Source: Phycisphaerae bacterium (lineage in GTDB: Bacteria; Planctomycetota; Phycisphaerae; JAJVII01). From it: a stretch of DNA of 44,319 nucleotides. The DNA lies in the NCBI GenBank assembly GCA_022072085.1, contig JAJVII010000023.1:1-44319 (forward strand), in the 5' to 3' direction. Numbering within the stretch: position 1 is the stretch's first letter; every line of letters begins with the position of its first letter. The translations under genes were made by a program, and so were the position numbers. Of this stretch, positions 21,137 to 44,132 are shown in pieces. Below the pieces are notes generated by a model that saw only the letters and a program-made list of their open reading frames with translations, did not search any database and was not told the DNA's origin.

Positions 21137-21343
21137 CTCTCTCCCTCTCTGCCGGGAAAGAGATGCAATGGCTGTGCCAGCCGGCGGCCGCGCGAGGGGA
21201 TTGCCTGGGCCGTCCTTTCGCGGATCGCCAGGGCTCGATTTTATCGGCGAAGTCCGTCTGTGCCGCCTCTGCCGCCCGCGCCGGGATGTCGCGAAACGTC
21301 AACAATCTGGCCGAGGGGTGTTGCTTTCTGTAAACTCGGCGGC

Positions 21344-34326: not shown

Positions 34327-34378
34327 ATGTTGTCGAAAATCAACATTGGGGACACTCGATGTTGACCGAAATCAACAT
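34327..34378 (+). promoter_or_regulatory. paired upstream dyads, probable enhancer sites
   Basis: Two copies of ATGTTG-N8-CAACAT occur at 34327-34346 and 34359-34378. The spacers are TCGAAAAT and ACCGAAAT, so even those resemble each other. The copies are offset by 32 bases, about three helical turns, placing both on one face of the DNA. The nearer centre lies about 130 bases upstream of the -24 element, where sigma-54 activators usually bind. Confidence 0.75.
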
Positions 34379-34498
34379 CTTCCCATGTGCAGAGCCCTGA
34401 TGAGCGGCCTTAACGAATTTTGTCAGATGCGTACAACACACGTTCATGAAATGCGTTACGGGAGCAATCCCATGCCGACTTGGAAATCGGGCGGCCAC

Positions 34499-34514
34499 TG
34501 GCACGCAGTTTGCA
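34499..34514 (+). promoter_or_regulatory. sigma-54 (RpoN) promoter of the PEP-CTERM gene
   Basis: TGGCAC (34499-34504), five bases, then TTGCA (34510-34514) match the -24/-12 consensus at every key position, with correct spacing of GG and GC. Transcription should begin near 34525, giving a leader of about 128 bases before the ATG at 34653. A seven-pair inverted repeat (34522-34528 with 34557-34563) lies at the start of that leader. Confidence 0.85.
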
Positions 34515-34652
34515 TGCTCTCTAGGCCGAGATTGAGAGGAGAAGCCAGTGAGCCACCGGCCTAAGTGAGAGAACCAAGCCGCAGGCTCCAGTGAGAGACT
34601 CCTCCTCCTAGTTCCGACAACCTAATGAATGTGTCCTGCTGGAGGGACCGCG

Positions 34653-35435
34653 ATGTTCACACGCAAGGATTGCGCGTCGACGTACCGGAATGTTTGCGCC
34701 CTGTTTGCGGTTGCGGCCTTGATGGCACTGATTGCCGCCCCGGCGCAGGCCGCTCCGTATGTCTGGGACTTCGGCAACCCGCCCGCGGTCGCCCCCACCA
34801 TCCAGAACATCATCGACAACTACGACGGCACCTTCATCGTCGGCGACAAGCAATTCACCAATTGGCGGGTGCAACCCAACCAGGTCGGCGGCGCAGTGGC
34901 CCCCGACGCTGCCGGCACGAGCATCGCGGGCGTCATTCGCAGTGGCGAGTATGGCCTGAAGATCACCGCCGGCTGGGTCGTCACCGGCAGCCAGATTTCC
35001 GACACCACGATCGTCTACAAGGTCACCGCGTTGGCTGAGGGCGTCAAGATTCACGACAACACATTGGAGATCTCCAACGCCGGCGCCGCCAACGGCGGCA
35101 TCGCCAGCGTCAGCGAGTATGTCTATGACGGCGACCCCGACCTTGGCGCAAACCTGATTCAGCAGGAATACGTCTACCACGTTTCGCCGGCCAACCAACT
35201 CCTCTCGGACCATCAGGAGTTCCCCGAACAGTACATCCTTTCCTCCGTCTGGGTCCAGAAGGACATCGCGGTCAGCGGCGTCACGCCCACGGGCAACGCC
35301 CACCTGAGCGTGATCTACCAGACGTTCAGCCAGACTGTGAACGTCCCTGAGCCGGCCACGCTGCTGTTGCTCGGCTTGGGCGGGACGACTCTGGCCGGGG
35401 CGGGCCTCCGTCGCAAGCGGATGGCAAAGGCGTAA
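34653..35435 (+). CDS. PEP-CTERM sorting domain protein
   Basis: A 260-residue secreted protein. Residues 1-33 form a signal peptide (hydrophobic core ALFAVAALMALIAAP, cleavage after A-Q-A). The body is beta-rich with no named domain. The C-terminus is a classic PEP-CTERM: V-P-E-P at 231-234, a hydrophobic stretch and a basic tail (LRRKRMAKA). Such proteins are cut and anchored or released by an exosortase, usually with exopolysaccharide, and help build biofilm or floc matrix. ATG 34653 has GGAGGGA upstream. The gene has a sigma-54 promoter and a strong terminator, so it is a self-contained unit. The exosortase is not in the window. Confidence 0.93.
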   Translation: MFTRKDCASTYRNVCALFAVAALMALIAAPAQAAPYVWDFGNPPAVAPTIQNIIDNYDGTFIVGDKQFTNWRVQPNQVGGAVAPDAAGTSIAGVIRSGEYGLKITAGWVVTGSQISDTTIVYKVTALAEGVKIHDNTLEISNAGAANGGIASVSEYVYDGDPDLGANLIQQEYVYHVSPANQLLSDHQEFPEQYILSSVWVQKDIAVSGVTPTGNAHLSVIYQTFSQTVNVPEPATLLLLGLGGTTLAGAGLRRKRMAKA

Positions 35436-35464
35436 GCCTACAGGCCGCATCCGAACCTGTCATA

Positions 35465-35495
35465 GGCCCCCGATCCGTCGGGGGCCATTTTTTTC
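35465..35495 (+). terminator. rho-independent terminator of the PEP-CTERM gene
   Basis: Arms GGCCCCCGA (35465-35473) and TCGGGGGCC (35478-35486) form a perfect nine-pair stem with a four-base loop. It is followed by ATTTTTTTT, a strong U-tract, 30 bases after the stop codon. Confidence 0.92.
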
Positions 35496-35608: not shown

Positions 35609-35680
35609 GCGGGTGTAGCTCAGTGGTAGAGCGTCACGTTGCCAACGTGAATGTCGTGGGTTCAAGTCCCATCACCCGCT
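35609..35680 (+). tRNA. tRNA-Gly (anticodon GCC)
   Basis: The acceptor stem GCGGGTG (35609-35615) pairs with CACCCGC (35673-35679), with discriminator T at 35680. The anticodon arm TCACG-TTGCCAA-CGTGA gives GCC. The GGGTTCAAGTCCC T-arm is intact. CCA is not encoded. Its 3' half is the integration site of the adjoining element. Confidence 0.96.
35634..35680. other. attachment site (att) in the 3' half of tRNA-Gly
   Basis: The integrase frame ends inside the tRNA, on the opposite strand, at 35634, so the shared att core lies within about 35634-35680. This is the usual use of a tRNA 3' end by tyrosine integrases. I found no second copy of the tRNA 3' end in the window, so the other att site must lie beyond 44319. 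Confidence 0.75.
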
Positions 35681-37319
35681 TCGAGTGAACGCCGTTGACA
35701 CGAGTTGTCAGCGGCGTTTTTGTTTTGCTGCCGCAAGCACTTACGACTGCCCCGCCCTTCTGAATCACGTTCTCCGCTCCGACTGCCTTTTTGACAGGAA
35801 TTGCCTCGCTTGCACACGAAAAGCCGTTAGCTTGTGCAAGCAGCAGTGCAAGCGGGTTTCCGCCCTCGGCCGCCTTCGATGGGTCGTTCGTGACGCTTCC
35901 GCCGGTCAGCGGCAGAGCCGGCAAAGAATCTAGCGCGCCTGCCACGTCCAGCAATTGCGGGTCTGTGTAGACGTTCGCGGTTAAGGCCGGGTCCGAGTGC
36001 CGCATTGCCGCTTGTGCGGTTCGTAGCGAAACCCCGCCCTTGCTTAAGAGCGTGCCGAACGTGGTGCGCAGCGCGTGAACGTCCACGGTCCAGCCTCGGC
36101 CGTCTCGCTTCTCGATTCGCACCTTGCCCGTCGTCGCGTCCTTCACGCGGCGAGCGATTCCTGCGGCCACAAGGTCGCGGTCAAGAATGACGTTCAGTGC
36201 GGCCGGCACGTTGAATAGCGGCGTGTGCGTTGGCAACGCGACCGGGACAGGCTGCCCCTCGCGTTTGGCGGCCTCCTGGGCGGCTCTGAGCTTATCGGCC
36301 GTCCATTGTTCCAGGTCCGCCGCAAGATCGCGGCGTAGGGCAATCCTGCTGCCCTGGCGGTTCTTCTCGTCGGCCGCATGAAGAACGGCGGATGGCGTGG
36401 GGCAGTCAAGTTCAAGCTGGCCGACGGTCAGCGACGCAAGCTCGCCTTTGCGCAGTCCGGTCAAGACCAGCGTCTTGTAGATCAACGCGCGTTCCCTGCC
36501 CTTGAAGTCCAGGCGTTCGCGGACCTCGGGGCGAACCTTGGCCACCGCCTGCCCTTTGCGTTCGCCGGTGCGGACGGTCAAGGCTTCTATCAGCGGGCGG
36601 CGGCGGGCCACGTCGAGCAATCGGACAAGTTCGGCCTCGGTCAGCGCCCGCCGCTGTCGTCGCGGGTCAGCCTTTGCATTGGCAATGGGCACGTCGGCGA
36701 ACGGGTTGGCCGTGGTGCGCCCAGTTCGGCGACACCAGTTGCCGAAGCCTACGGCGGATTCGCGATAGCCGTTGCGGGTCGCCGCAGACATTCCCTCGGC
36801 CTGCCGCTGGGCCAGCCAAGCGACCAGCTTGTCAGCGGACAGGTCGGCCAGTCGCCGAGCCTGGCAGTCGTCAGCGATTCGGGCCAACCGGCTTTCGACC
36901 TGGGCAATTCTGGCCGGCGCTCCGCCCTTGGCGGTCAGGTGGGCAACAAAGGCGGCGACGTGAACGGTCAAGGCCGTGTTCTGGTGGTCGATGGCGGCGT
37001 CCTGGGCGGCGGTCAACACCTTGCCCTTGACCAGTTCCGCCCGGCGGACCAGTTCGGCCAGCACGTTGCGGGCGGCGGTTGCGTCGCGGCAGCCCGTCGC
37101 GGTTTCGCGTAAGATGCCCTGCCCGTCGCGGTATTGGGCGGTGTAGGTGGCCGCCTCGATCAGCAGCCGGGCCGTGCCGTCCTTGCCGCAAGTCACCCGC
37201 GCTGTTCGCGTCTTGCCCTGCGCGTCCTTGAACCGCGCAAGCTGCTCGCCTTTGCGGGTGAACACCGCTGCGCCTTCGGGCAGCGGCTTGGTGAACGTCT
37301 TCTTGAACACGGTGGCCAT
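35634..37319 (-). CDS. tyrosine-type site-specific integrase
   Basis: A 561-residue phage-type integrase. A SAM-like core-binding domain lies at about 115-205. The catalytic domain follows with Arg290 (LTGLRKGEL), Lys319 (A-D-E-K-N-R), His415 and Arg418 (DVHALRTTFG), His441 (MRHSDP) and the nucleophile Tyr451 (N-V-Y-T-D-P), so all key residues are present. After about 470 there is a 90-residue tail without catalytic motifs. Its last dozen residues (MGLEPTTFTLAT) are the antisense translation of tRNA-Gly. ATG 37319 lies just after the XRE gene stop, so the two are co-transcribed. It should integrate and excise the element at the tRNA. Confidence 0.95.
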   Translation of the reverse strand: MATVFKKTFTKPLPEGAAVFTRKGEQLARFKDAQGKTRTARVTCGKDGTARLLIEAATYTAQYRDGQGILRETATGCRDATAARNVLAELVRRAELVKGKVLTAAQDAAIDHQNTALTVHVAAFVAHLTAKGGAPARIAQVESRLARIADDCQARRLADLSADKLVAWLAQRQAEGMSAATRNGYRESAVGFGNWCRRTGRTTANPFADVPIANAKADPRRQRRALTEAELVRLLDVARRRPLIEALTVRTGERKGQAVAKVRPEVRERLDFKGRERALIYKTLVLTGLRKGELASLTVGQLELDCPTPSAVLHAADEKNRQGSRIALRRDLAADLEQWTADKLRAAQEAAKREGQPVPVALPTHTPLFNVPAALNVILDRDLVAAGIARRVKDATTGKVRIEKRDGRGWTVDVHALRTTFGTLLSKGGVSLRTAQAAMRHSDPALTANVYTDPQLLDVAGALDSLPALPLTGGSVTNDPSKAAEGGNPLALLLAQANGFSCASEAIPVKKAVGAENVIQKGGAVVSACGSKTKTPLTTRVNGVHSKRVMGLEPTTFTLAT

Positions 37320-37322
37320 GTC

Positions 37323-37541
37323 TCACCCTTTCGTCTGTCGCGTGGGTCGGCACTCGATCCCAAAGTAGGCGGCGAGTCGGTCGGCCATGTCCAGCCGCAA
37401 GGATTGTTCGCCGGCCACAAACTTCATAAGCGATTGGCGTTTGACTCCGGTTGCCCGCTCGACGGATCGGAATGATTCAGCCGCGAGTATCGCCTTCTTC
37501 AATAGGTCCGTCATTGTGGGATTGTGCTTGACCTTGCTCAT
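37323..37541 (-). CDS. XRE-like helix-turn-helix regulator
   Basis: A 72-residue DNA-binding protein. The helix-turn-helix is visible as S-V-E-R-A-T-G-V-K-R-Q-S-L-M-K-F, followed by L-R-L-D-M-A-D-R-L-A-A-Y-F-G, as in short XRE/Cro-type repressors. I take ATG 37541; an in-frame ATG at 37592 would add 17 residues that look like promoter DNA (a TTGACA lies there). It ends four bases before the integrase start. It is the natural candidate for binding the dyads just upstream of it, and thus for controlling integrase expression. Confidence 0.8.
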   Translation of the reverse strand: MSKVKHNPTMTDLLKKAILAAESFRSVERATGVKRQSLMKFVAGEQSLRLDMADRLAAYFGIECRPTRQTKG

Positions 37542-37592
37542 GTAATACTTCTTACCACACTTATTGCCGATGTCAAGTCCATTCTCGCCCAA

Positions 37593-37704
37593 CAGTCGGG
37601 CCGGGCAGTCCGGCCCGACTGGATACCCTTATGGGTAGAGCGCAAGTAGTTTGCGCCGACAAGTGCCGCCGTTTGCGCCTGTCAGGGCGCAAGTACTTTG
37701 CGCC
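37593..37704. promoter_or_regulatory. dyad-rich control region upstream of the xre-integrase pair
   Basis: Two near-identical dyads, GCGCAA-N5-TTGCGC, lie at 37640-37656 and 37687-37703. The shared TTTGCGCC also occurs at 37672-37679. A perfect 11-bp inverted repeat (37593-37603 with 37611-37621) and a small TACCC-TTAT-GGGTA dyad (37624-37637) lie between them and the XRE gene. A TTGACA-like -35 (37571-37576, minus strand) follows. Likely roles are repressor operators or replication iterons. Confidence 0.55.
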
Positions 37705-38095
37705 TGTCGCCGTCCTGGGCCAGGGGCCGAATTCGGTAGATGCTGAACCCGCGATTCAGCCCGCCACGGTGAAGCACGTCCAGCAGCCCGGCCCGCTCAA
37801 GCCGCTTGATCGCCATGCCGACCGTCCGCTTACCGAGACCAGCACGTTTGGCGATGAACGATTGGGCGCTCCTGGCGGTGTCAGGGCGGGCGTCGCGGAA
37901 CAGGACGAACCAGACAAGGGCGTCGGTCCTGGGTAACTTGGCCAAAGTGCAATCGACAAAGGCGTTGAACGCGGCGAACCGCTGCCCGGCCCGGCCGCCA
38001 TGCCCGGCCTCGGGGGGTTTGCGTTCGTCCTGGCAATCGGGGGGCAGCAGAGGCGGCAGTACGTCGCATCCTTCGAGCCGTTCAGCCCTGGTCAT
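37682..38095 (-). CDS. winged-helix/HTH protein of the replication module
   Basis: A 137-residue protein. The C-terminal two thirds look like a helix-turn-helix of the replication-initiator or MarR-like type: A-Q-S-F-I-A-K-R-A-G-L-G-K-R-T-V-G, then A-I-K-R-L-E-R-A-G-L-L-D-V and a wing (R-G-F-S-I-Y-R-I). I choose ATG 38095, which overlaps the end of the ATPase gene by 14 bases; the frame is open further back in that gene's shadow. It is the last gene of the replication operon. It may bind the repeats beside its own 3' end, one of which lies in its last codons. Confidence 0.65.
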   Translation of the reverse strand: MTRAERLEGCDVLPPLLPPDCQDERKPPEAGHGGRAGQRFAAFNAFVDCTLAKLPRTDALVWFVLFRDARPDTARSAQSFIAKRAGLGKRTVGMAIKRLERAGLLDVLHRGGLNRGFSIYRIRPLAQDGDRRKVLAP

Positions 38096-39047
38096 CGTCG
38101 GCCCCTTCCTCGCCTGCCGGCGGGGTTCGATCCCAAACAGCACGTAACGCGTCACGGAACTTGCCCTTACCAGCCTGTGCGGGGTCGCCGGCTGAATCAG
38201 GGGCGGTGAACAGTTGGCGCGTGCGGTCGAATCGCAAGGCGATGTCGCGACACTCGCCATAACGGTCCTTCAAGTGTTTGAGCGTCACCGCGTCGGCGTC
38301 GCCCTCCTCGTCCGGCGTCAGGATGAATGCGGAGTCGGCCCCGAATTCCAGTTCGGACGATTCGCGGAACGATGCCAGGCTCAAGCCCTCGCCGTAGGAG
38401 TTCCGGCCGCGTGAGTCCTTCGACCGGCCGACAGCGGAAACAACGATCACGGCCACCCCGACGGCCGCAAACTGCCGCATGTAGTCCATCGTGGCATCGA
38501 CTGAACCGCGTTTGTCGCCGTGGTCGCCTGGGGGCCGAATACGCTGTATGTAGTCCAGCACGATCAGCCCGCCCTGCCCGCCCACGCCGAAAGCGTCAGC
38601 GGTGGCAGCCACGTTGTCCAGGTCGAACGGCGGCTTGAGGAAGCAGAGCCGGTCGGCCAGCGGTTCAAGGGCGCTCATCGCCGTTGCTATGCGGTCGCCG
38701 TGGTCCTTGGTCAGCCGGCGGTATCGAATCAGGTTGAGGGGGATTCCCGACAGGCGGGCAAGCTGGCGGTCCAGCAGCATCGCCGGCAACATCTCGACGT
38801 TGCAGATAACCGCCCGAAGCGTGGGCGTCAGCCGCAAGGCGTCAATCACGGCCTGCATGGTGAACGCGGTCTTGCCCGCGCCCGGCGCGCCGCCGAACAG
38901 GTTGACCAGTCCCGGCCCTACTTCAATGCGGCGTAGCTCGCCGTCGCCGATGGGGTAGAGTGTCGGGGCTTTGCCGGTCAGCACGTCCTCGCGCCAGCCG
39001 GGCCAGAGGTCGCCGGCGGTAGTGTAGTTCGCTCGCGGCGTGGTCAT
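38082..39047 (-). CDS. RecA/DnaB-like replicative ATPase (helicase-like)
   Basis: A 321-residue P-loop ATPase of the RecA/DnaB type. It has Walker A GAPGAGKT at 53-60, Walker B L-I-V-L-D with Y-I-Q at about 161-168, a DnaB-like C-N-V-E-M segment, and a sensor-like VSAVGRSKDSRGR at about 205. DnaB-style helicases of phages and plasmids share this core without the N-terminal primase-binding domain, which is absent here. Its ATG overlaps the primase stop (ATGA), so expression is coupled. It probably acts as the replicative helicase with the primase. A RepA-like hexameric helicase is another fitting name. Confidence 0.82.
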   Translation of the reverse strand: MTTPRANYTTAGDLWPGWREDVLTGKAPTLYPIGDGELRRIEVGPGLVNLFGGAPGAGKTAFTMQAVIDALRLTPTLRAVICNVEMLPAMLLDRQLARLSGIPLNLIRYRRLTKDHGDRIATAMSALEPLADRLCFLKPPFDLDNVAATADAFGVGGQGGLIVLDYIQRIRPPGDHGDKRGSVDATMDYMRQFAAVGVAVIVVSAVGRSKDSRGRNSYGEGLSLASFRESSELEFGADSAFILTPDEEGDADAVTLKHLKDRYGECRDIALRFDRTRQLFTAPDSAGDPAQAGKGKFRDALRAVWDRTPPAGEEGADDDQG

Positions 39048-40024
39048 GTCGCGTGTTCCTTATGTCGGAGTCCGCAATCAATCACGCGGCGCACCTCGGA
39101 CGGTGATAGGCCGCTATCGCGACCCGCCTCGGTCAGCAGCTCATAGGCAAGGTTGGCGGGGCAGCCGAGTTCGGCCAGATTCGCGGCGGCACTGAACAAG
39201 CGTTTATGCCGCTCTCCGTTGGTCGCGCCATTGCGAATGAAGTCAAGAGTGCGTCGGTTCAGGGTCGAGGGGGCGGGGGTTGGCCCGACTTGTCGGGCCG
39301 CCCCCGCCCCCGACTGAACGCGAGCCTCGTCAGTGGCCTTCGTCCAGTCTTCGACCATTCGGGCGGTGTAAGCGTCGTCGGCTGTCGGCAAGGGAACGTC
39401 GAACGGGGCCGGCTGGGTCGCCTGGGCAAGAATGGCGGCGATGTCCAGCCGCTGCAACTCGGCCAGCGAGACAAGACGCTTGTATAACCCCGCTTTCGGG
39501 TGCCGCGAGTTCGGCGCCCTGAACGCCCGGACCCTGTCGTAGATGGCGGTGTCGATCTCCGCCCCGACCTCGGCGGCGAGCGTTTCGCAGAATCGCCGGG
39601 CTATCCGGTGAAAGTCAGTCGTGGGCGCGGGGTTCCACGGCGAGCAAGGCAGCCCGACGTGGAACCCCTTCGCGCCCGAGAAGAACAGCAGCAACGAATC
39701 GGCCGGCAAGCCGTATCGGTCCACCAGCGATGCCGCCAATCGTCTCGCGTCAGCCTGGGCGCGGGGCAGATCGTCGGCCCGGTCGATGTCCCACCAGATC
39801 ACGGGGGCGGAGCACAGGCCGGCAAAGCCTTTGGTTGTGCCCGTCCGTTCAAGGTGTTGGCGGAAGTCCTGGCCAAACGTGAACGCGGATAGGTAAGATT
39901 CGCGGTTCACCTCGGCCAGTGCATCGCACCGGGCATAGGCGGCGTAGGCAGTGGCGAAGTCGATCAGGTGTCGCCGACCTGCGCAGTCGCCCATGATCCG
40001 AAATCCGTATGGCGTTCGGTTCAT
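39044..40024 (-). CDS. archaeo-eukaryotic-type (AEP) primase
   Basis: A 326-residue protein with the three catalytic motifs of the AEP fold. The metal-binding DxD is in W-W-D-I-D (Asp79, Asp81). SGxKGFH is at 116-122. A third Asp lies near 158 in G-A-E-I-D, followed by basic residues (R-A-P-N-S-R-H). A C-terminal segment (T-L-D-F-I-R-N-G, then AYELLTEAG) resembles PriCT-like helical domains. It should lay down primers for the adjacent helicase. ATG 40024 is taken over 40039 because family content begins there. The stop overlaps the ATPase start. The mobile-element context fits replication of an integrative element. Confidence 0.82.
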   Translation of the reverse strand: MNRTPYGFRIMGDCAGRRHLIDFATAYAAYARCDALAEVNRESYLSAFTFGQDFRQHLERTGTTKGFAGLCSAPVIWWDIDRADDLPRAQADARRLAASLVDRYGLPADSLLLFFSGAKGFHVGLPCSPWNPAPTTDFHRIARRFCETLAAEVGAEIDTAIYDRVRAFRAPNSRHPKAGLYKRLVSLAELQRLDIAAILAQATQPAPFDVPLPTADDAYTARMVEDWTKATDEARVQSGAGAARQVGPTPAPSTLNRRTLDFIRNGATNGERHKRLFSAAANLAELGCPANLAYELLTEAGRDSGLSPSEVRRVIDCGLRHKEHAT

Positions 40025-40035
40025 GGCGTGGCCCC

Positions 40036-40581
40036 TCAAATGGGTATCCCGTCGTCAGGCGTAACCGCTTTGGCGGGCAAGCCCGCTTCGTCGGCTTCGC
40101 CTCTGGGCGAAGGGGTTGCGGCGGGCTGGGCCGCCGGGGCGAACGGGTCCGGTCCTGGCGTATCGACGCCCAGCACGTCGAACGACCGAACGCGGTTGTA
40201 GTCGGCCTGGCCGTCGTCCTGGCGGACCGTCACCCGGACGCGACACCGAATGCCCTGCCGCAACGGCCGGTCCAGTTGGTCGAGCGTCGTAATGCCGAGT
40301 TTGCCAAGGTCGCGCTTGGCCATCGGCATTGCTGCCGGGGTCAGCCAGATGTCATGCCAGACTTGCCGGCCGGCGTACTCGCCCTCGATCACTTTGAAGG
40401 TGAGCTTGTAGCCGGGCGTCTCGTTCTGCCGGCTGGTAAAGCATTCGCCCGATACGATGTGGGCGACGTACTCGCCAGCCGGCAGTGGCACGAAGTCACC
40501 TGCCGGCTTGGCGGCGTCGAACGCCTGGGCCAGCGAGTCCCGGTTGACGTTGGCCAGGATGTCAGAGAGTCGGTTACTCAT
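40036..40581 (-). CDS. DUF669 family protein (single-strand DNA-binding-like)
   Basis: A 181-residue protein with the DUF669 pattern: F-V-P-L-P-A-G-E-Y-V-A-H-I, then PGYKLTFKVIEGEYAGRQVWHDIWLT and A-K-R-D-L-G-K-L-G-I. Phage DUF669 proteins sit next to helicase and primase genes and are thought to bind single-stranded DNA or aid recombination. The C-terminal 50 residues are Pro/Ala rich, with an acidic end (PDDGIPI) like SSB tails. ATG 40581 overlaps the stop of the excisionase-like gene (ATGA), and the gene ends 11 bases before the primase. Confidence 0.82.
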   Translation of the reverse strand: MSNRLSDILANVNRDSLAQAFDAAKPAGDFVPLPAGEYVAHIVSGECFTSRQNETPGYKLTFKVIEGEYAGRQVWHDIWLTPAAMPMAKRDLGKLGITTLDQLDRPLRQGIRCRVRVTVRQDDGQADYNRVRSFDVLGVDTPGPDPFAPAAQPAATPSPRGEADEAGLPAKAVTPDDGIPI

Positions 40582-40841
40582 CTCCCACCCCCGTTGCGGC
40601 AGTTGGGGCAGCCGGCGGCGATCCAGTCCAGGACAGCGGCCCGCGACCAGCGGACCAAGCCGCCCAGCTTGACCGGGCGGGGCATCCTGCCGGCGTCGGC
40701 CAGCCGGTAGACGTGCCGGGTCGAGCAGGTCAGCAAGGCGGCTACCGCCTCCACGTCGAGCATTGCGGACAGTTCGCGGGGTGTCCTGCCCCCGCCGCCG
40801 GTGTTCGCCCCGGCGGTCGCGTCTTGGGTGGCTTGCGTCAT
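40578..40841 (-). CDS. excisionase/AlpA-type helix-turn-helix protein
   Basis: An 87-residue protein with a winged MerR/Xis-like HTH: V-E-A-V-A-A-L-L-T-C-S-T-R-H-V-Y-R-L-A-D-A-G, then P-R-P-V-K-L-G-G-L-V-R-W, the standard wing, and a final C-P-N-C. AlpA and Xis proteins of this type direct excision of integrated elements and often switch on the integrase. ATG 40841 has GGAGG seven bases upstream. It is the first gene of the replication operon; its stop overlaps the DUF669 start, so excision control and replication genes are expressed together. Confidence 0.85.
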   Translation of the reverse strand: MTQATQDATAGANTGGGGRTPRELSAMLDVEAVAALLTCSTRHVYRLADAGRMPRPVKLGGLVRWSRAAVLDWIAAGCPNCRNGGGR

Positions 40842-40973
40842 GGCAAAGCCTCCGATTGGGTTCCGGGCGGCGTGTCGGCCACACGGCGTGGCTGACTATC
40901 CTGGCCCGCTACTGACCGCGAACCGGACCGGGCGGACCGTGGGCGGACCGGGCGAGAATCCGGTAGGCGCAAA

Positions 40974-41005
40974 TGAAAACCCCGGAAAAGCCGGGCTTTC
41001 CGGGG
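40974..41005 (-). terminator. rho-independent terminator between the two element operons
   Basis: CCCCGGAAA (40980-40988) pairs with TTTCCGGGG (40997-41005). On the minus strand the stem is followed by TTTTC. It lies 38 bases after the stop of the gene ending at 41043 and separates the Res-side genes from the replication operon. Just downstream (about 40925-40952) are three GGACCG repeats of unknown meaning. Confidence 0.82.
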
Positions 41006-41042
41006 AAAAGATTCCTCAGAGAAATTCTAGCGATGGTCCGGT

Positions 41043-41504
41043 TTAGTCCGCGTCGGACGTGCCTTGACGGTCAATGTCGCGGTCCCGCACAACGGATCGA
41101 CCGGCCTGCCGGCCCCTTCGCGGCTTGTTCTTCTGCTCACCAAGGGCCTTGCGAGCGCTGCGAAGATACCTGGTCCATGTCTCGTAGGCGGGCAACTTGT
41201 CGCCGGAATCGAGGTGGGCAGCTAACCAGTCGTAGGCCTCGCGGTCTTTGGTTATCGGCATGGCCGACTGTTCGACAGCATAGGCATATTGCTGGTAGGC
41301 CTTCCGCTCGGCGGGTTCCAATGGATCGGTCGTTGGGGCGTGGGCGGCCACTTCGCCTCGCCCGTCCTGGTGGGCAGGTGGGGCAGCCGGGGCGACAGTC
41401 GGCGCGGCGGCTGGGGCTGGTTGGCCGAAGCCGGGGATTGCCTTCTGCAAGTCGAGCCTCACGTCCTCGACGAAGACTTGAAGCATTACGCGTTCAGATT
41501 CCAT
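41043..41504 (-). CDS. hypothetical protein (probably longer at its N-terminus)
   Basis: At least 153 residues. It opens M-E-S-E-R-V-M-L-Q-V-F-V-E-D-V-R-L, has a Pro/Ala linker (PAPAAAPTVAPAAPPA) and ends in a basic, acidic-tipped tail (RRGRQAGRSVVRDRDIDRQ). No domain recognised. The frame stays open upstream to the stop at 41619-41621 and reads like protein (E-E-Y-V-I-L-A-A-I-H-Y-H-V-Y-G-A-S-R). A GGAGGAG site sits at about 41604-41611, so translation may really begin at a CTG (41594) rather than at the ATG. Confidence 0.55.
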   Translation of the reverse strand: MESERVMLQVFVEDVRLDLQKAIPGFGQPAPAAAPTVAPAAPPAHQDGRGEVAAHAPTTDPLEPAERKAYQQYAYAVEQSAMPITKDREAYDWLAAHLDSGDKLPAYETWTRYLRSARKALGEQKNKPRRGRQAGRSVVRDRDIDRQGTSDAD

Positions 41505-41618
41505 GCCGCGTGTGTGCTCAGATATCCAAATTCTGCGCAGAAGCGGATCAATCTGGCGGCTGGCCCCGTAGACGTGGTAATGGATGGCGGCCAGGATGAC
41601 GTACTCCTCCAGGAGCGA

Positions 41619-41981
41619 TTACTGCCGGGTGCGAACTACGGGCAGTGGAAACGGCGGGGCTACAAGGTGCTTGGTCAGTTCGATTGGCCAGTATCCGACG
41701 TTGGGGCGGCCCTGGTCAAAGTCCCGGCGAAGCCACACCATGCCGGGCGGGGTCTTGTGAACATGCCGCAACGGGTGCGACAGTGGCAGGCTGGCGAGCT
41801 TGGCTTTGTATTGCTCTTGGGCGTCGCGGTGCGCACGGACTCTGTCGCGCGCGGCGCGGTCTTGCTCCGCCCACTTGGCCAAGAACGCGCAGAATCGGCC
41901 TTTCACCGCCTCGTTGCGTACAAGGTCGTCAACGGCCTTGGCGACGCCTTCAACGATTTCGGGATAGCTCAAGTCGTTCAC
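41619..41981 (-). CDS. hypothetical protein
   Basis: A 120-residue protein starting at a GTG (41981) with AGGG six bases upstream. The N-terminal half is helical and charged (Y-P-E-I-V-E-G-V-A-K-A-V-D-D-L-V). The middle has A-R-D-R-V-R-A-H-R-D-A-Q-E-Q-Y and the C-terminal third is richer in Pro, Trp and His (H-V-H-K-T-P-P-G-M-V-W). I recognise no domain. It lies between Res and the next unknown gene, 24 bases after the Res stop. Both unknowns may be accessory parts of the restriction locus or of the element. Confidence 0.5.
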   Translation of the reverse strand: MNDLSYPEIVEGVAKAVDDLVRNEAVKGRFCAFLAKWAEQDRAARDRVRAHRDAQEQYKAKLASLPLSHPLRHVHKTPPGMVWLRRDFDQGRPNVGYWPIELTKHLVAPPFPLPVVRTRQ

Positions 41982-42005
41982 GACATGCCCTGGGCGGGTT
42001 GGTGC

Positions 42006-44132
42006 TTACGCCAAAGCCGCCAGCCCGGTTTCTATTGCCGTCCAGTCCTTCTCCACAACCCACACGAAGACGCTTTGGCCGTCGGAACGTCCGGCCCACA
42101 GGTCGCCGATTTCCTTCTTGTGCGGCTCGGCCAGGGCCAACTTGGCGTTCTTGTACTCGATGAGCGCTACGCGCCCGTCGTCCAACTCCGCCACAAAGTC
42201 GGGGAAGAATCGGCCCGGCGAGAGTGGCAGGCTAAATCCGCCGCCGCCATTCTGCGGCTCAAGGTTGCGCACCCAGCGTTTGACGTTCTTGCAGTCGTCG
42301 ATCTTTCTGGCGCAGTCGGCCTCATCGTCATTCATGTCGCCGATCAGAGCGAAGGCGTGCTTGCCAAGATCGTAAAGGCCACGGTCGTAGCGACGGTAGG
42401 GGCAATAGTCTTCCTCTGCGAGGGGCCATGCCATGTCCATCGAGGTTGCGAGCGACCGGGAGGACGTGCCGGCAATCAGCATGTTCGCGGCCTCCCGAAT
42501 CTGCTGCCGTCCGTGTTCGGCGATTCGGCGAATTAGCACGTCCGCCAGGTCATGCCTCTTGCGAACGAGAATCCGGGGATCGGCCTTCCGGTCGGTAATC
42601 AGGTAGTCAGCGACACGCAACAGCCAAGCTTGGCTTTCGGCCTTGGAGAGTGTGGCATAGGCCCCGCCGTGGTGGAGTTCCGCGTCGAGCCAGCGGACGA
42701 GTTCCGGCTTGCTCCAATCGTCGCTCTCGGGGGCAAACGTCAGTTGGCGGACAATGACTTCCTGGACGCCGCCGATGTGCATCCCGCCCCGTGCGGCTAA
42801 ATCAACGGTGGTGCGGTCGCCAAGGCTCAAGTCGGTGGAGAATTCGCCAGGGGCAACGGCGACATTGCAGGCGTCCAGGTTCCACGAGAATTCATCCAAC
42901 TCGGCCGGCTCAAAGAGCAAACTTCGCTTGCCGTCCGTCACGACAAGTTGGGGGAGGCGCAGCGGGGGCGCGTATTGGTCGAGCAACTTCGGCACGGTCC
43001 CTACGCCGCGCTCGGATTGCCAATAAGCTTCCACGGCGGTACGGTCGGCCTCGGTGGGCAGCGCATCGCGCAGGGCAATGGTTTCCTCGCGTGTCAACGA
43101 GCCTTGGACATGCAGCGTGCGCGATCCGGGGTCGTATTCAACCTTCCCACGAACCGCCGGTGGCAGGGCCTTGGCCGGAACGGGGGCAGAAACCGGAATC
43201 GTGGCAGACGGCAACATGCCCTGGGCCTGGGCCGTCCGATGGACCCTGAACGCATCGCCGACCGATTGGGCATCGAATCCGCACCGACTGACGAGGCTGT
43301 CGCACAGCTTCTTGGCGGTCTGCACCACGTCGGGGCTTTGCACCACGGCATAGGCGCGGTCGAGTTGGGGAACGCCGGTCGGCAGGGCTTCCGGCATGCG
43401 AAGCACGCGACCTAGAAGCTGCTCAACGGCCGCTTCGGTGGCAACATTGCCGACCGAACCGAGGACGTAGGCAAACGGGCAATCCCAGCCCTCACGCAAC
43501 TTGTCAACCGTTATGACGTACTGGACCTTGCAGTCTTTGGCGCGGAGATCCTCGGCCCCCAGGTCGTCATGCTCGCCGGTGGCAATACGGATGTTCTCCG
43601 GGGATACCTTCATCTGCTCGACGAGGGCCGTCTTGATGGCGTCTACGGTGTGGGTTTCCCGCGTCCTGCTTTTCGGCTGGGCCTGAATCAAGGCAATGGG
43701 ACGGATGAAGCGTCCGCTCCGCTGGCCCCACGCCTGGCACAGACGGTCCAATGCGGTTCGTCGCTCCACCGTCAGGGCCAACACGTCGAGCCAGTTATCC
43801 CGCGATTCCAACTCGACGGGCAGCTTAATCATGCCCTCGCGTTTCAGTTGCAGTGCCGATACGGCGTGCAAGACATTGCTCGCATATTCTTCCTTCTCGG
43901 GGTTATGCTCCTGCTGCGGGGTCGCGGTCAGTTCCAGCACGGCCAGCGGGCCGAACCTCGCAAGCGAATCAAACGATACGCGGGTTCGCGCGTTGTGGGC
44001 CTCGTCCATGATGACGATGGGGCCGCGCAGCTTCATGGCGTTCGCGAGCGACAGCGCCACGCGCCCGCCGTTGCCGTTGGGTTCGGCCAGTTGGTCGCGG
44101 ACCCAAGCGGGCAGATTCGTGAAATGGTCCAT
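42006..44132 (-). CDS. type III restriction enzyme Res subunit, N-terminally truncated (probable pseudogene)
   Basis: At least 708 residues of a superfamily 2 helicase-nuclease as in type III restriction Res subunits. It shows DEAH at 43-46 (M-D-E-A-H-N), a helicase motif E-L-T-A-T-P-Q, motif V/VI-like segments (V-D-K-L-R-E-G-W-D-C-P-F, then E-Q-L-L-G-R-V-L-R-M) and a C-terminal endonuclease pattern (F-F-P-D-F-V, then I-E-Y-K with Glu659 and Lys661). The Walker A part and the DNA upstream of it are missing. The frame stays open back to 44199 and then meets an IS-like end with an in-frame TGA at 44202. Without its ATP-binding motif the enzyme should be inactive. No Mod methyltransferase gene is seen here. 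Confidence 0.8.
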   Translation of the reverse strand: MDHFTNLPAWVRDQLAEPNGNGGRVALSLANAMKLRGPIVIMDEAHNARTRVSFDSLARFGPLAVLELTATPQQEHNPEKEEYASNVLHAVSALQLKREGMIKLPVELESRDNWLDVLALTVERRTALDRLCQAWGQRSGRFIRPIALIQAQPKSRTRETHTVDAIKTALVEQMKVSPENIRIATGEHDDLGAEDLRAKDCKVQYVITVDKLREGWDCPFAYVLGSVGNVATEAAVEQLLGRVLRMPEALPTGVPQLDRAYAVVQSPDVVQTAKKLCDSLVSRCGFDAQSVGDAFRVHRTAQAQGMLPSATIPVSAPVPAKALPPAVRGKVEYDPGSRTLHVQGSLTREETIALRDALPTEADRTAVEAYWQSERGVGTVPKLLDQYAPPLRLPQLVVTDGKRSLLFEPAELDEFSWNLDACNVAVAPGEFSTDLSLGDRTTVDLAARGGMHIGGVQEVIVRQLTFAPESDDWSKPELVRWLDAELHHGGAYATLSKAESQAWLLRVADYLITDRKADPRILVRKRHDLADVLIRRIAEHGRQQIREAANMLIAGTSSRSLATSMDMAWPLAEEDYCPYRRYDRGLYDLGKHAFALIGDMNDDEADCARKIDDCKNVKRWVRNLEPQNGGGGFSLPLSPGRFFPDFVAELDDGRVALIEYKNAKLALAEPHKKEIGDLWAGRSDGQSVFVWVVEKDWTAIETGLAALA

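Follow-up and report, generated by a model that had tools for sequence, protein, structure and literature searches.

What switches on a gene for an exported PEP-CTERM protein that lies behind a sigma-54 promoter and a pair of inverted repeats, and do these repeats mark a wider set of genes? The question is raised by a locus in a 44,319-nucleotide stretch of DNA from a Phycisphaerae bacterium (hereafter the window), which corresponds to contig C48 of a draft genome that totals 5.49 Mb, is split into 72 contigs and is 97% complete. Some planctomycetes carry dozens of PEP-CTERM genes. A sequence-only reading of the window had placed the gene in a matrix-protein regulon driven by a sigma-54 activator, with the dyad ATGTTG-N8-CAACAT as its binding site, and had pointed to the PrsK/PrsR two-component system. 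Our analysis bears out the regulon and the motif but not the attribution to PrsK/PrsR. The explanation that we consider probable is that this control region serves one of many genes in a large sigma-54 regulon of exported PEP-CTERM proteins, run by a two-component system encoded on contig C56.

Control region and gene in the window

The following features were located in the window:

34327..34346, no strand assigned: upstream dyad ATGTTG-N8-CAACAT, ATGTTGTCGAAAATCAACAT, putative enhancer site 1; exact match, one of the 23 exact copies in the genome
34359..34378, no strand assigned: downstream dyad, ATGTTGACCGAAATCAACAT, putative enhancer site 2; exact match
34499..34514, + strand: sigma-54 -24/-12 promoter TGGCAC-N5-TTGCA, TGGCACGCAGTTTGCA; exact, matrix score 29.3
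34525, + strand: predicted transcription start, 12 bases past the C of the -12 GC, from sigma-54 promoter geometry
34653..35435, + strand: gene for an exported PEP-CTERM protein of 260 amino acids, with a GGAGG ribosome-binding site just before 34653 and a hydrophobic N-terminus
35343..35420, + strand: PEP-CTERM sorting signal, VPEPATLLLLGLGGTTLAGAGLRRKR; TIGR02595 31.3 bits (cut-off 16), PF07589 30.1 bits (cut-off 20.7)
35464..35495, + strand: probable intrinsic terminator, read from the sequence as CCCCGATCCGTCGGGGG with a run of T after it

Both dyads and the promoter element are present exactly as first described. The dyads are offset by 32 bp, and the gaps between the dyad end and the T of TGGC measure 152 bp for site 1 and 120 bp for site 2, so that the earlier wording of about 130 bases upstream was fair. 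Even with two mismatches allowed, only 0.61 matches to the dyad would be expected in the window, compared with the two exact copies found. The -24/-12 word alone constitutes weak evidence, since a second exact copy occurs in the window at 21164-21179; the score of 29.3 for the promoter at 34499-34514 derives from a matrix built from 81 sites of the same genome. The encoded protein combines a C-terminal PEP signal, a transmembrane stretch and a basic tail, with PF07589 at residues 231-255 as its sole Pfam match, and its open reading frame also extends to an alternative upstream start at 34629. Directly after this gene, the region 35634-44132 resembles a mobile element or prophage, as judged from integrase-like, helicase-like and primase-like open reading frames.

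A predicted genome-wide sigma-54 regulon

Across the whole 5.49-Mb genome, ATGTTG-N8-CAACAT occurs 23 times exactly and the reversed pattern not once; with up to one mismatch, the counts are 67 and 2, respectively. The consensus of 59 copies reads ATGTTG(C/A)-N6-(G/T)CAACAT with an A/T-rich middle. The copies are not randomly placed, as 22 of the 23 exact dyads lie approximately 90-165 bp upstream of a -24/-12 element. By matrix score, a sigma-54 site is found 60-260 bp downstream of 21 of the 23, while such intervals make up 2.6% of the DNA fetched. At C6:146453, the exact dyad is followed 122 bp on by a weaker -24/-12 element (AGGTACGCCAATTGCG) and then by a gene. The remaining copy (C56:21260) has no recognised sigma-54 site and is positioned 44 bp before the kinase gene of a histidine kinase-response regulator operon. 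All statistics beyond the whole-genome counts are based on 80 stretches (~0.69 Mb) plus the window; these stretches were picked around dyad copies, sigma-54-like sites, PEP-CTERM hits and activator genes, and are enriched for these features rather than a random sample. The matrices were trained on the same sites that they score, a weakness from which the whole-genome counts and the reversed control are free. The genome encodes rpoN in one copy (PF04552, C12:74258-74731, E 7.3e-65), whose absence would have counted against a regulon, and an exosortase (PF09721, C8:86626-87399, E 5.5e-56).

The geometry of these promoters is constrained. Measured to the -24 element, dyad distances fall into groups at 86, 95-101, 108, 113-122, 127-131, 140 and 148-149 bp, placing the dyads in helical phase with the promoter (period 10.3-10.4 bp, R = 0.60; none of 20,000 jittered sets scored as high). 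Where two dyads lie within 120 bp of each other, 25 of 31 pairs are spaced 31-33 bp apart and some 21-22 bp, and the pair in the window is typical. In six aligned upstream regions, conservation is confined to the dyads and the -24/-12 element. A gapped-palindrome search of the 34 sigma-54 promoters without a good dyad returned no repeated second motif.

A dyad lies 60-260 bp upstream of 57 sigma-54 promoters, and the open reading frame immediately behind at least 43 of these promoters is a PEP-CTERM one. This number is a lower bound, because the simple, automatic choice of reading frame failed at apparent frameshifts (C34:1901, C16:73539) and at contig ends (C57:29429, C70:1024). A PEP-CTERM gene follows 41 of 55 sigma-54 sites that have a dyad versus 12 of 34 that lack one (Fisher p = 0.00035). 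Viewed from the genes, a dyad-bearing sigma-54 promoter lies within 2.6 kb of 45 of the 92 PEP-CTERM hits, and for roughly half of the PEP-CTERM genes the scan showed none. A few members of the regulon are not PEP-CTERM genes. These counts, together with the helical phasing, support a sigma-54 regulon made up mostly of PEP-CTERM genes, which the dyad marks genome-wide and nearly always in phase with a -24/-12 element. That the products would reside in the matrix, as the term matrix protein implies, is suggested by the known role of PEP-CTERM tails and by the presence of the exosortase. With a site, a promoter and a candidate activator for more than 40 surface-protein genes, the regulon provides a way into the question of how these bacteria construct their surface or matrix.

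Several individual loci deserve mention. At C30:65524 and onwards (L042:11515-11620), a dyad sigma-54 promoter is followed within ~65 nt by an intrinsic terminator (GCCCGGAACCGC...GTCCGGGCATTTTT), with no obvious open reading frame; the locus adjoins the apparent 3' end of glmS on the opposite strand and might encode a small RNA, with an unremarkable fold (z -0.9). Strong dyad-sigma-54 promoters around C45:39820 (L079) and C3:91184 (L074) apparently drive only very short peptides, one of ~35 amino acids (MTGGWWTNSGLSLGGLGGLGGWKRPKPRPKKPARG) and, in the latter case, a hydrophobic one of ~22 amino acids (MGFFRRKYRIVLLTLATFIALC). Behind a strong dyad pair and sigma-54 promoter at C37:25461 (L077) lies a gene for an 83-residue protein with no Pfam match, just downstream of another sigma-54 activator gene. 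The PEP-CTERM genes behind dyad promoters at C34:1901-3303 and C16:73539-74901 look frameshifted, with signal and start in different frames, which could reflect either assembly error or decay. Strong sigma-54 promoters that lack a dyad (on C38, in L037 and L078; C27:13552, C33:77508, C64:6126 and others), several of them before multihaem cytochrome genes, probably belong to the regulons of other activators.

The candidate activator

Very probably, the dyad is where a two-component activator docks in order to turn this gene set on through sigma-54 RNA polymerase. The genome encodes 13 clear sigma-54 activators, and two of them, on C56 and C18, have a dyad in their own control region. The C56 operon combines a soluble PAS histidine kinase with an NtrC-type response regulator, the latter composed of a receiver (PF00072), a sigma-54 interaction domain (PF00158), an AAA+ lid and a Fis-type helix-turn-helix (PF02954). 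The C18 protein is receiver-less and consists of AAA+ and helix-turn-helix domains only.

The placement of the dyad before the C56 operon is conserved. In G197, a member of the same family but of another genus and the nearest relative compared, the regulator orthologue is 85% identical and an exact dyad lies 36 bp before its kinase gene. Further away, in the distant planctomycete family f15, the orthologous operon of G090 follows a one-mismatch dyad by 86 bp; no good dyad was found before the kinase gene of G074 of the same family, where the contig begins close upstream. Among ten other orthologues of the class, eight (G002, G032, G053, G071, G087, G132, G159 and G181) have the core GTTG-N8-CAAC upstream of the kinase gene or H-box, against an expectation of ~0.003-0.004 each; this expectation takes no account of dinucleotide bias, and several genomes have uncertain kinase starts. 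Orthologues of the regulator across the phylum, with those of G197 and f15 among them, group in a single clade (support 100/100) and were detected in 65 of 197 phylum genomes (E <= 1e-125). The regulator is thus far more widespread than the dyad-plus-sigma-54 architecture and must serve other targets elsewhere. For this reason, presence or absence of the regulator alone was dropped as a means of choosing the binder, and the binder was chosen by the position of the core ahead of the regulator's own operon.

An alternative, which we regard as unlikely, is that the C18 activator itself binds the dyad and activates both its own gene and the PEP-CTERM genes, with the C56 operon as merely one more target. 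Autoregulation is common among such sigma-54 activators, and the C18 protein, whose gene carries a dyad, could be the binder: at C18:38263 the dyad is identical to the second dyad of the window and is followed 99-100 bp on by a strong sigma-54 site. In G197, the orthologue is 71% identical and likewise has dyads and a sigma-54 promoter. However, a C18 orthologue did not turn up among the activators of f15, although the genomes of that family have the same dyad and PEP-CTERM promoters, and it is before the kinase-regulator operon that the dyad core extends across the class. The recognition helix IARPRLYRK of the C18 activator also differs from the INR(T/S)TL(Y/F)KK of the C56 regulator clade. 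Because f15 has an orthologue of C56 but none seen of C18, because the C56 orthologues form one clade and because the core precedes their own operon, we favour the C56 regulator as the probable binder. The C18 activator then looks like an amplifying target.

We propose that the soluble PAS kinase of C56 senses a cytoplasmic signal and that the phosphorylated regulator would bind ATGTTG(C/A)-N6-(G/T)CAACAT in dimeric form, in most cases at a pair of sites separated by three helical turns, and would build a ring there on the same side of the helix. Through DNA looping, the ring could contact sigma-54 polymerase at TGGCAC-N5-TTGCA, with ATP hydrolysis opening the promoter. The product would be exported and its tail processed by the exosortase. 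The same circuit would turn on the C18 activator, which may strengthen the response or carry it to additional promoters.

PrsK/PrsR and the distribution of the system

Control of PEP-CTERM genes through sigma-54 has been described before. Among the species that they discussed, Haft et al. (2006) found the sigma-54 motif in Proteobacteria alone, with an upstream 17-mer ending in TTTACA (motif 1) ~63 nt before the promoter (motif 2) (PMC1569441). RpoN dependence has been shown for one gene, pepA of Aquincola (PMC9850573), and the PrsR-type regulator DVUA0057 of Desulfovibrio vulgaris binds PEP-CTERM targets (PMC3333781). In the literature searched, we found no planctomycete counterpart of this control.

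The regulon described here shares the logic of proteobacterial PrsK/PrsR: -24/-12 promoters stand before many PEP-CTERM genes, an upstream enhancer motif is sometimes repeated, and an NtrC-type response regulator is encoded beside a histidine kinase. It is nevertheless highly improbable that PrsK/PrsR itself controls these genes, as the sequence-only reading had suggested. In an NCBIfam scan of ten of the 13 regulators (all except L011, L016 and L010, whose 89% paralogue L008 was included), the C56 regulator obtained the best score against the PrsR model TIGR02915, yet its 418.7 bits fall short of the cut-off of 502.6, and it scores higher against AtoC (479.4, cut-off 714), so that no named family fits. 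PrsK (TIGR02916, cut-off 300) is absent from the 25 best NCBIfam matches of the C56 kinase, and the f15 kinase reaches 91 bits. Genes for TPR proteins that follow the orthologous f15 operon match PrsT weakly, at 59-62 bits, whereas the cut-off is 312.2 (TIGR02917). Moreover, the site is the dyad at 86-152 bp and not the proteobacterial 17-mer at ~63 nt, the host belongs to another phylum, the kinase is a soluble PAS protein, and an extra receiver-less activator lies inside the regulon. Since membership fails wherever it was tested (regulator score, kinase, site and spacing), we conclude that the system works like PrsK/PrsR but should not be filed there.

Among other known systems, the C56 regulator resembles NtrC/AtoC/ZraR-type activators with an autoregulated operon in its domains, its palindromic upstream sites and the dyad before its own operon, while a regulon of tens of PEP-CTERM genes sets it apart. 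The C18 activator has the bare AAA+ and helix-turn-helix architecture of PspF-like proteins, although it lies inside the regulon behind a dyad and, at 240.4 bits, remains below the PspF cut-off of 443.55. The activator of the regulon is likely another NtrC-type two-component regulator, widespread in Planctomycetota, and the system as a whole is very probably a planctomycete equivalent of a circuit known until now mainly from Proteobacteria. That sigma-54 and two-component control recur here with another regulator and another site suggests more than one origin of this logic for exported surface proteins. It is very unlikely that the dyads instead serve as an operator for a repressor, or as some other element that has nothing to do with sigma-54 and lies near these promoters by chance: inverted repeats of this size are typical of repressors as well, and the dyad before the C56 operon, with no recognised sigma-54 site, could be a repressor site there, but distances of 86-152 bp and helical phasing to the -24/-12 element fit a looping activator and not an operator that overlaps the promoter.

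The arrangement, as opposed to the regulator, is rare. G197 contains 13 exact dyads (reversed control 0), several of which precede sigma-54 sites and PEP-CTERM genes, while the rest of the class shows background dyad counts of 0-3. In the phylum sample, the f15 genomes G074, G090 and G009 have dyads and sigma-54 sites with at least one PEP-CTERM gene behind them, and under the strict pattern the full dyad-plus-sigma-54 architecture was found in 4 of 392 phylum genomes. A scan of GTDB contigs for the dyad together with a sigma-54 site yielded 19 loci, several of which, in Rhodocyclaceae, Exilispira and Spirochaetae, are followed by unrelated genes and could reflect chance or other activators. 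In any related genome, the motif allows the regulon to be listed from sequence alone.

A broader reading, which we offer tentatively, joins these observations. Two or more distant planctomycete lineages might have taken up an autoregulated NtrC-type regulator, itself widespread in Planctomycetota, as the master switch of a large surface-protein regulon, with the logic of PrsR in Proteobacteria but a different regulator and site. The C18 activator could then form a feed-forward arm, genes for PilZ proteins (c-di-GMP receptors) could be shared targets in relatives, and a few promoters would drive short peptides or a small RNA in place of PEP-CTERM genes.

Two further groups of loci were observed in other genomes. 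PilZ-like genes stand behind dyad and sigma-54 promoters in G197 (PF07238) and, as judged by eye, in G074 and a Planctomycetota MAG (L158:670-1255, L162 on the minus strand, and L121), a possible link of the regulon to c-di-GMP. In three planctomycete MAGs (L106, L119 and L120), a dyad and, after a gap of 118-119, a sigma-54 promoter precede a thiE-like open reading frame, and in two of the three a second dyad lies 91-92 bp further up.
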